NCBI GenBank assembly: GCA_016342325.1
Contig: JAEINR010000021.1
Location: 1-64,000 of the forward strand
Source of the DNA: Desulfobacterium sp.
GTDB taxonomy: Bacteria > Desulfobacterota > Desulfobacteria > Desulfobacterales > Desulfobacteraceae
Direction of reading: 5' to 3'
DNA: 64,000 nucleotides
Made by a program: the position numbers and the translations under genes. Numbering within the stretch: position 1 is the stretch's first letter; the number at the start of each line of letters is the position of its first letter. Shown one piece after another: positions 17,153-41,146 of this stretch. The notes beneath the pieces are model-generated. The model did not search any database. It worked only from the letters and a program-made list of their open reading frames with translations, and had not been told where the DNA came from.

Positions 17153-17212
17153 GGCGTTTTATTTCACGGGTTTTTACTTGCTTTTTTCTTTCAAACAAGC
17201 CTATTAAACATC

Positions 17213-17410
17213 CATCAGGTGCTCCTGAAGGGAGCTAAGAGGGAATTCCGTGTGAATCGGAAACGGGCCCGCCGCTGTATTTGATGACGAAAGCCGCAAC
17301 AATGCCACTGTTGTTCGTGTGACGGGAAGGCGCGGTGATTAGGTTCTTAACTTTGATTCTGGCTTGTCCAGGTTAAGATAAGTCAAGAGTCAGAAGACCT
17401 GCCTGATATT
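17213..17410 (+). promoter_or_regulatory. Cobalamin (B12) riboswitch
   Basis: CAGGTGCTCCTGAAGGGAGCTAAGAGGGAATTCCGTGTGAATCGGAAACGGGCCCGCCGCTGT...GCCACTGTT...GGGAAGG...GAGTCAGAAGACCTGCCTGAT. Confidence 0.92.
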
Positions 17411-17467
17411 AGAGGTGCTTTTCCGTGGAAAAGGATGCACTGTCAGATCTTGAGGAAAGATAGGGAT

Positions 17468-39711: not shown

Positions 39712-40740
39712 TCACAGGGCGTTTGTGCCCGTGATGGCGTGGATGGCGTTGACTTTTTTCATGAGTTGATCAAACTGTTCCGGGAGCAGGGACTGGGCCC
39801 CGTCGCTGAGGGCCTCGTCGGGTTTGTGGTGGACCTCGACCATGATGCCTGCGGCACCCACTGCTGCGGATGCAAAGGCCAGGGGCATGACCTGGTCCCG
39901 GACCCCGGCTGCATGGCTGGGATCGACGATCACGGGCAGGTGGCTCTCCTTGTTCACCGCCGGGACCACTGAGAGGTCCAGGGTGTTCCGGGAGTGCTTG
40001 ACAAAGGTTCTGACGCCCCGTTCACAGAGGATTACCTTGGGGTTTCCCTCTTCCATGATATATTCTGCGGCCATGAGCCATTCCTGGAGGGTGGCGGACA
40101 TGCCGCGCTTGAGTATCACCGGCAGTTTGGAGCGTCCGGCCCGCTTTAACAGGGAGTAGTTCTGCATGTTCCGGGTGCCGATCTGCACGGCATCGGCATA
40201 GGCTTCCACCAGGTCAAAGTTTTCAACATCCATGGTTTCGGTGACAACGGGAAGGCCGGTTTCTTCTCTGACTTTGGCGAGGATCTTTAAGCCCTCTTCG
40301 CCAAGTCCCTGGAAGGAGTAAGGGGAAGACCTGGGCTTGAACGCCCCGCCCCTGAACACTGCGGCCCCCGACTGTTTAACGGCCTTTGCAATGGTCAGTG
40401 CCTGGGCTTCGCTCTCAATGGCGCAGGGGCCGGCGATCACGGGCAGGTCTTTGCTGCCGAACAGCACGCCGCCGATGGATATCACCGTGTTTTCTTGTTG
40501 GAATTCCCGGCTCACAAGTTTGTACGGCTTTGTCACCGGAAGAACCTCCTTTACACCTTCAAGGCCCATGAAATGAGCAGCATCCACCGATCCCTTATTA
40601 TAAAGGATCCCGATGGAGACCCGGTCTCCGCCGGGGATGGGCCTGGCTGTGAGCCCCCTTCGTTCTGCAGCCGCTACAACCGATTGAACTGTCTTGTCTG
40701 TGGTTCCTTTTTTCATTACTATCAGCATTTCTACCTCCAT
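39712..40740 (-). CDS. aroF: 3-deoxy-7-phosphoheptulonate synthase with N-terminal regulatory domain
   Basis: PVIAGPCAIESEAQALTIAKAVKQSGAAVFRGGAFKPRSSPYSFQGLGEEGLKIL. Confidence 0.96.
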   Translation of the reverse strand: MEVEMLIVMKKGTTDKTVQSVVAAAERRGLTARPIPGGDRVSIGILYNKGSVDAAHFMGLEGVKEVLPVTKPYKLVSREFQQENTVISIGGVLFGSKDLPVIAGPCAIESEAQALTIAKAVKQSGAAVFRGGAFKPRSSPYSFQGLGEEGLKILAKVREETGLPVVTETMDVENFDLVEAYADAVQIGTRNMQNYSLLKRAGRSKLPVILKRGMSATLQEWLMAAEYIMEEGNPKVILCERGVRTFVKHSRNTLDLSVVPAVNKESHLPVIVDPSHAAGVRDQVMPLAFASAAVGAAGIMVEVHHKPDEALSDGAQSLLPEQFDQLMKKVNAIHAITGTNAL

Positions 40741-40778: not shown

Positions 40779-40850
40779 TAAAAAAAGGTTGCGGCTAACG
40801 CCCCAACCCAAAAACAAAAAAGAGGTTGGGGGCTTGGTGCCCGCAACCTC
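40779..40850 (-). terminator. Attenuator terminator upstream of aroF
   Basis: Minus strand GGTTGCGG (40848-40841)...CCGCAACC (40794-40787) + T7; nested CCCCAACC/GGTTGGGG; competing AAGAGGTTG/CAACCTCTT pairing. Confidence 0.8.
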
Positions 40851-40875
40851 TTGTTATTACCTATTTTTTATCGTA

Positions 40876-40989
40876 TCAGACAGAAAAAAGTGTGCGGGCA
40901 TCCCTAGGTGTCCAGGAGCGCCACCACTTACCAGCGGCAGAAAACTGGCATGCCGCAAAAAAAACAATTTCTGTTTGATAATAGTTCAT
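40876..40989 (-). CDS. Putative aromatic-amino-acid leader peptide of aroF attenuator
   Basis: Minus strand ORF MNYYQTEIVFFAACQFSAAGKWWRSWTPRDARTLFSV*: YY, FF, WW doublets; not in ORF track because short. Confidence 0.6.
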   Translation of the reverse strand: MNYYQTEIVFFAACQFSAAGKWWRSWTPRDARTLFSV

Positions 40990-41146
40990 ATTTAATCTAC
41001 ATAGGGTTACGGACGAAGTTTTGTCAACAAAAAAACATGAAAACAATGATTAAACATGGTTCTTTCATGGAGTTCATCATCCACAGGACCAGGCTTCTCA
41101 CCCAAATCGCTGGACACAACGACCCCGGTCGTAAGGAGACACCACC

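Follow-up and report, generated by a model that had tools for sequence, protein, structure and literature searches.

The window analysed here is a 64,000-nt stretch of the genome of a marine sulfate reducer, Desulfobacterium sp. (Desulfobacteraceae). Its minus strand carries aroF (39712–40728), which encodes the entry enzyme of aromatic amino acid synthesis, a type I-beta DAHP synthase (NCBIfam PRK08673/TIGR01361; Pfam DAHP_synth_1 plus a ferredoxin-like domain); among named relatives a Desulfobacterium sp. MAG (L076) is closest, its AroF being 95% identical. The gene was placed at 39712–40740. The start codon is most likely the ATG at 40728 and not that at 40740, because a GGAGG Shine-Dalgarno sequence precedes it and the MLIV N-terminus that follows is conserved in relatives; within the family, each of the 50 aroF start codons has a Shine-Dalgarno sequence. 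Downstream lie a PhzF-family gene and then a GNAT gene, unlike most of the family, where aroB comes next. Elsewhere in the window, a cobalamin riboswitch was identified on the plus strand at 17200–17420 (Rfam RF00174, 101.5 bits).

Upstream of aroF, the minus-strand leader ORF named in the original prediction (40989–40876) is present and consists of 37 codons, reading MNYYQTEIVFFAACQFSAAGKWWRSWTPRDARTLFSV before its stop codon, with Trp codons at W22 and W23 (40926–40921) and W26 (40914–40912). Directly in front of it is a promoter, P1 (41027–40998, minus strand), composed of TTGACA (41027–41022), an 18-nt spacer and TATGTA (41003–40998), from whose position transcription is expected to start near 40991. 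The -10 box of P1 is weak in the window and was therefore missed by a consensus promoter scan; TTGACA-16/17-TATAAT occurs at the same place in nearly all leaders of the family. A candidate second promoter, P2 (40778–40750, minus strand), with TTGCTG, a 17-nt spacer and the extended -10 element TGA-TACTAA, lies just after the T tract of the last hairpin described below. It was found in 37 of 50 family loci with the fixed 17-nt spacing, and in none on the antisense strand.

The leader ATG of the window lies 8 nt past the -10 box and has no Shine-Dalgarno sequence; the lack of a strong one, already noted in the original prediction, proved informative. In the family of the window the leader ATG is mostly 8–11 nt past a TTGACA-N16/17-TATAAT promoter, again without a Shine-Dalgarno sequence, which predicts a 5' UTR of about 0–5 nt, and in other families of the order it is mostly 20–45 nt past the -10 box, often with AAGGA/GAGG-type sites. 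Judging from this promoter spacing, the window leader ORF is probably leaderless or nearly so, like most of its family, since its start codon stands 8 nt past the -10 box with no Shine-Dalgarno sequence. The alternative start giving the peptide MPVFCRW, which the original prediction had kept open, was rejected: its ATG is missing in a locus of the same genus (L002, GCGGCAGACC), whereas the 37-codon frame is maintained within the genus, with five synonymous and two non-synonymous changes.

Conservation of the leader was examined in the sequences upstream of about 130 aroF orthologues of the family and the order, with a Trp cluster defined as three Trp with no gap longer than three residues, within an ORF of 15–60 codons starting at ATG or GTG. 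Such ORFs precede aroF in 61 of 132 regions on the sense strand; the antisense strand of the 132 regions has 4, and dinucleotide shuffles gave 0–4 (mean 1.4 of 132). Examples are WWRGFWFFY (L006), WWWWY (L012), YYWWWRYYWFF (L015), WCWWWQSLW (L016) and WRWWW (L024). Every leader in a set of 79 contains two or more Trp, and WW occurs in 62, FF in 18 and YY in 6; this set was selected for Trp pairs, and the fairer comparison is the strict cluster count over 133 aroF loci, which gave 65 for Trp (3 antisense), 2 for Phe and 1 for Tyr. These counts indicate that Trp is what selection keeps. The YY and FF of the window recur in each of the three loci of its genus and are not conserved beyond it, except that L006 partly resembles them (QTEx(x)FF); the originally proposed YY/FF/WW signature thus holds across orthologues for Trp and is confined to the genus for the other two doublets. 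Family leaders share no peptide sequence beyond an operator-coded N-terminus (see below) and the Trp cluster. About half of the aroF orthologues lack a Trp cluster, some of them operon-internal.

Two departures from this pattern were observed. Desulfotignum and its kin (L013, L100, L010, L199) have neither Trp codons nor terminators and keep the operator-like start and P2, a sequence arrangement that we read as a natural deletion in which the attenuator was lost; P2, retained there, is a candidate attenuator-independent promoter. In Desulfospira joergensenii (L007) the aroF leader contains YFFRFYCW, with one Trp among Phe and Tyr, possibly a shifted specificity.

The leader RNA can be divided into segments with alternative partners. 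All the strings originally proposed to pair, TGCCCGCA (40900–40893), TGCGGGCA (40845–40838), AAGAGGTTG/CAACCTCTT and CCCCAACC/GGTTGGGG, are present where they had been placed. In place of the single terminator stem of that proposal we found two tandem hairpins, and its GGTTGCGG/CCGCAACC corresponds to the long-range 3:6 pairing. Hairpin T1, AAGAGGTTGCGGGC/GCCCCCAACCTCTT (40852–40820, minus strand), is formed by segments 3 (40852–40839) and 4 (40833–40820) and has a T6 tract at 40821–40816; hairpin T2, the terminator GGTTGGGGC/GCCGCAACC (40809–40786), is formed by segments 5 (40809–40800) and 6 (40795–40787) and followed by a T7 tract at 40786–40780. The antiterminator arm, segment 2 (TGCCCGCA), lies close to where the ORF ends. 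Folding of the 236-nt region gave -85.2 kcal/mol, better than 200 of 200 shuffles (z -5.2), and the 83-nt terminator part had z -5.9 against shuffles. T1- and T2-like hairpins recur throughout the order.

Complementarity was assessed by a species-swap test, in which each arm is paired with its own partner or with the same arm of another species, using one locus per genus in 27 genera. The 3:4 pairing gave z -11.9, 2:3 gave z -3.8 (p at most 0.002), and 4:5 was stronger with its own arm than with swapped ones (-15.1 vs -11.8 kcal/mol, z -6.3, p at most 0.001); the negative control 2:5 was not significant. The covariation anticipated in the original prediction is thus seen in the species-specific match of segment 2 to 3 and of 4 to 5. 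Some of the 4:5 signal could stem from T2 being a copy of T1; the 3:6 pairing (z -3.0) is clearly weaker in energy than 4:5. When the full set of loci is broken down by group, the 2:3 signal is clear in the family of the window; the remaining families, whose arms differ very little in sequence, give no significant signal by themselves. In the genus of the window all four arms have changed together, the stem core being GGTTG, CAACC, GGTTG, CAACC, against GGCTG, CAGCC, GGCTG, CAGCC in sister genera (e.g. L014). A possible 1:2 hairpin over the Trp codons (40929–40888, minus strand; -19.0 kcal/mol, strong in the window), which would act as protector and allow termination when the leader is not translated, is tentative: no conserved 1:2 hairpin was found, the pairing being weak in L002 and L077 with a family mean z of -0.2. 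In equilibrium folding with a ribosome placed at each codon the terminators win at every position, so the switch must be kinetic; in snapshots with segment 3 just emerged, stalls at Trp favour 2:3. Rfam searches of the window at the gathering score found no leader or T-box family, and relaxing them to E up to 10 gave chance-level matches only, including Thr_leader on the opposite strand (12.6 bits).

Sequence establishes the Trp codons, the hairpins and the species-specific pairing of segment 2 with 3 and of 4 with 5; from these we infer Trp sensing, ribosome stalling, an order of folding and termination, as follows. RNA polymerase would start near 40991 and the leader ORF would be translated from the RNA 5' end. 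With enough Trp-tRNA, the ribosome would reach the end of the ORF and cover segment 2, allowing 3:4 (T1) and 5:6 (T2) to form, and transcription would stop at the T tracts. Under Trp-tRNA shortage the ribosome would stall at W22-W23 or W26 and leave segment 2 free to pair with segment 3; the freed segment 4 would pair with segment 5, no terminator would form, and aroF would be transcribed. Because the 2:3 and 4:5 pairings are species-specific, the RNA is predicted to act as a six-segment relay, 3:4 plus 5:6 signalling stop and 2:3 plus 4:5 signalling go. With two terminators in series 2:3 alone would be insufficient, and 4:5 supplies the missing step.

The aroF 5' leader would accordingly be a ribosome-mediated transcription attenuator reading charged tRNA-Trp, a reading to which we assign a probability of about 0.85. 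The conserved leader ORF and the covarying alternative pairings support the attenuator first proposed, as do the order-wide hairpins, the Trp leader on trpE of this genome, the relatives with aroF next to trpE and the Tyr and Phe leaders of the isozymes (see below); the unconserved 1:2 hairpin, the dominance of the terminators at equilibrium, the weak P1 -10 box of the window, the orthologues with no Trp cluster and the possible origin of T2 as a copy of T1 weigh against it. Attenuators of this kind are known, and the DAHP synthase target and the lineage appear new; our literature searches found no such attenuators reported in Desulfobacterota, which, given their partial coverage, is weak evidence of novelty.

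Trp leaders and a candidate operator also occur at other genes. The trpE gene of the window genome (L218) has its own Trp leader, TTG-NTNDHHPAHENRYWWWHTFTFGMPWAG (WWW), with AGAGGA in front. In two other loci (L117, L118) trpE lies directly after aroF under a Trp leader, with trpG and trpD next in L117. A palindrome, TGTTTCT-N6-AGAAACA, precedes trpE in five loci and overlaps the start of a Trp-repressor-family gene (L250; PF01371, E 9.5e-16); the loci carrying it are L218, L216, L217, L219, L220, L250 and L257, and its sites include trpB. In sister genera the palindrome covers the start codon of the aroF leader (e.g. G010, G014, G020, G259, G273; also L008), and this overlap explains why the N-terminus FLYxET of their leader peptides is conserved. 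It was not found at aroF of the window genome. We regard the palindrome as a candidate TrpR operator outside Gammaproteobacteria.

Leader peptides of other composition precede the sister DAHP synthases. The type I-alpha enzyme of the window genome (G000:C189) has the leader MSRFFADVYYWYYYYAIRPPGVS (L238), and leaders rich in Tyr and Phe precede the gene in 26 of 31 type I-alpha loci, with none antisense; they follow the pattern ...YFYFxYYFYxTGLPGVR and then stop (L238, L237, L242, L232, L240, L241, L233, L267-L293). Phe leaders (...FGRFFFRSVHPV) precede AroF-PheA fusions in 16 of the order's 22 loci (32 with outgroups), also with none antisense, their pattern being ...FxFGRFFFRSVHPV before the stop (L208-L215, L294-L310). 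Four genomes carry all three leaders: G030 (L024, L280, L297), G026 (L023, L282, L213), G094 (L177, L284, L309) and G062 (L158, L279, L304). The window genome has the Trp and Tyr types plus a type II enzyme, and no AroF-PheA fusion was found in it. A Phe leader on that type II DAHP synthase (MDTPIFIWLWFFITG..., L230) has no counterpart in L231 and was judged to be chance.

The window AroF would thus be the Trp-branch DAHP synthase of a set whose other isozymes, in relatives, carry Tyr and Phe leaders. More broadly, we think it likely that Desulfobacterales split carbon entry among three DAHP synthases by leader-peptide attenuators: Trp for the I-beta AroF, Tyr for the I-alpha enzyme and Phe for AroF-PheA. 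If so, the codon composition of three short ORFs, and not TyrR/TrpR alone, sets branch-specific supply. This three-way partition appears to be new and is the more interesting claim than the Trp attenuator itself.

The original prediction held that one leader senses several aromatic tRNAs, so that a stall at YY (codons 3–4), FF (codons 10–11) or WW (codons 22–23) would each lead to read-through. The genus-wide retention of YY and FF and the missing AroF-PheA isozyme of the window genome are compatible with such integration, as is snapshot folding, where P(2:3) also exceeds 0.9 for stalls at Tyr 3-4 or at Phe 10-11; in Corynebacterium glutamicum one leader is read for both Phe and Tyr (PMC11802643). 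Stalls so far upstream would, however, leave segments 1 and 2 time to pair. Beyond the genus Trp is conserved and YY/FF are not, save for the partial likeness in L006, the N-terminal Tyr and Phe of sister genera are explained by the overlapping TrpR-type operator, and the window genome has a leader of its own for Tyr (L238). With Trp alone common to the leaders, and Tyr and Phe leaders on other isozymes, sensing of several aromatics is unsupported, and we consider it improbable.

Two further explanations concern whether the leader is read at all, and what becomes of its products. The ORF might be untranslated, with T1 and T2 serving as tandem terminators for upstream transcription and aroF expressed from P2; the ATG without a Shine-Dalgarno sequence and the position of P2 after T2 would suit this, but the Trp clusters, the reading frame and the 2:3/4:5 complementarity are all conserved, a promoter stands directly in front of the ORF, and other families of the order carry the same leader with a Shine-Dalgarno sequence, so we judge it very unlikely. 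We give equally little credence to the terminated leader RNA and the peptide acting in trans besides in cis, as rnTrpL and peTrpL do in Sinorhizobium meliloti: a leaderless Trp leader with a terminated leader RNA is the anatomy of S. meliloti trpL (PMC7298713), but the peptide is unconserved apart from its operator-coded N-terminus and Trp cluster.

Attenuation of aroF by Trp-tRNA, together with the partition, would provide a working model of how a group of major anaerobes controls its aromatic amino acids, of which none was found in the literature searched, and it allows the specificity of each DAHP synthase to be predicted from the leader peptide in front of it. Natural variants in the family, some with and some lacking a Shine-Dalgarno sequence or an operator on the start codon, and others from which the attenuator has disappeared, make attenuator evolution directly testable.

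Among known systems, trpL of E. coli and other proteobacteria likewise has a promoter-proximal short ORF with tandem Trp codons and an antiterminator opposing an intrinsic terminator. The aroF leader differs in controlling a DAHP synthase rather than trpE, in its two serial hairpins instead of one, in being probably almost without a 5' UTR and in matching no Rfam leader family. In S. meliloti the leaderless trpL ORF begins at the RNA 5' end (PMC7298713) and controls trpE(G), whereas leaderlessness at aroF is deduced from promoter spacing only. The his operon attenuator of Salmonella and E. coli has segments A-F, its E:F terminator being countered by the pairings B:C and D:E (PMC4046918), as 2:3 and 4:5 oppose 5:6 here; in contrast to it, the aroF leader reads Trp, the window 3:4 hairpin has its own T tract, and the equivalent of A:B is unconserved. 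The AroR leader of C. glutamicum aroF (Neshat et al. 2014, as described in PMC11802643; PMC4046766) also attenuates a DAHP synthase gene through an aromatic leader peptide, and it differs in having a Phe-Tyr-Phe leader on one isozyme in Actinobacteria. In E. coli the three DAHP synthases AroF, AroG and AroH are under TyrR and TrpR, one aromatic amino acid each (PMC5343134; PMC11802643), whereas the split in Desulfobacterales would rest on three leader peptides, plus a TrpR-type repressor on the Trp side.
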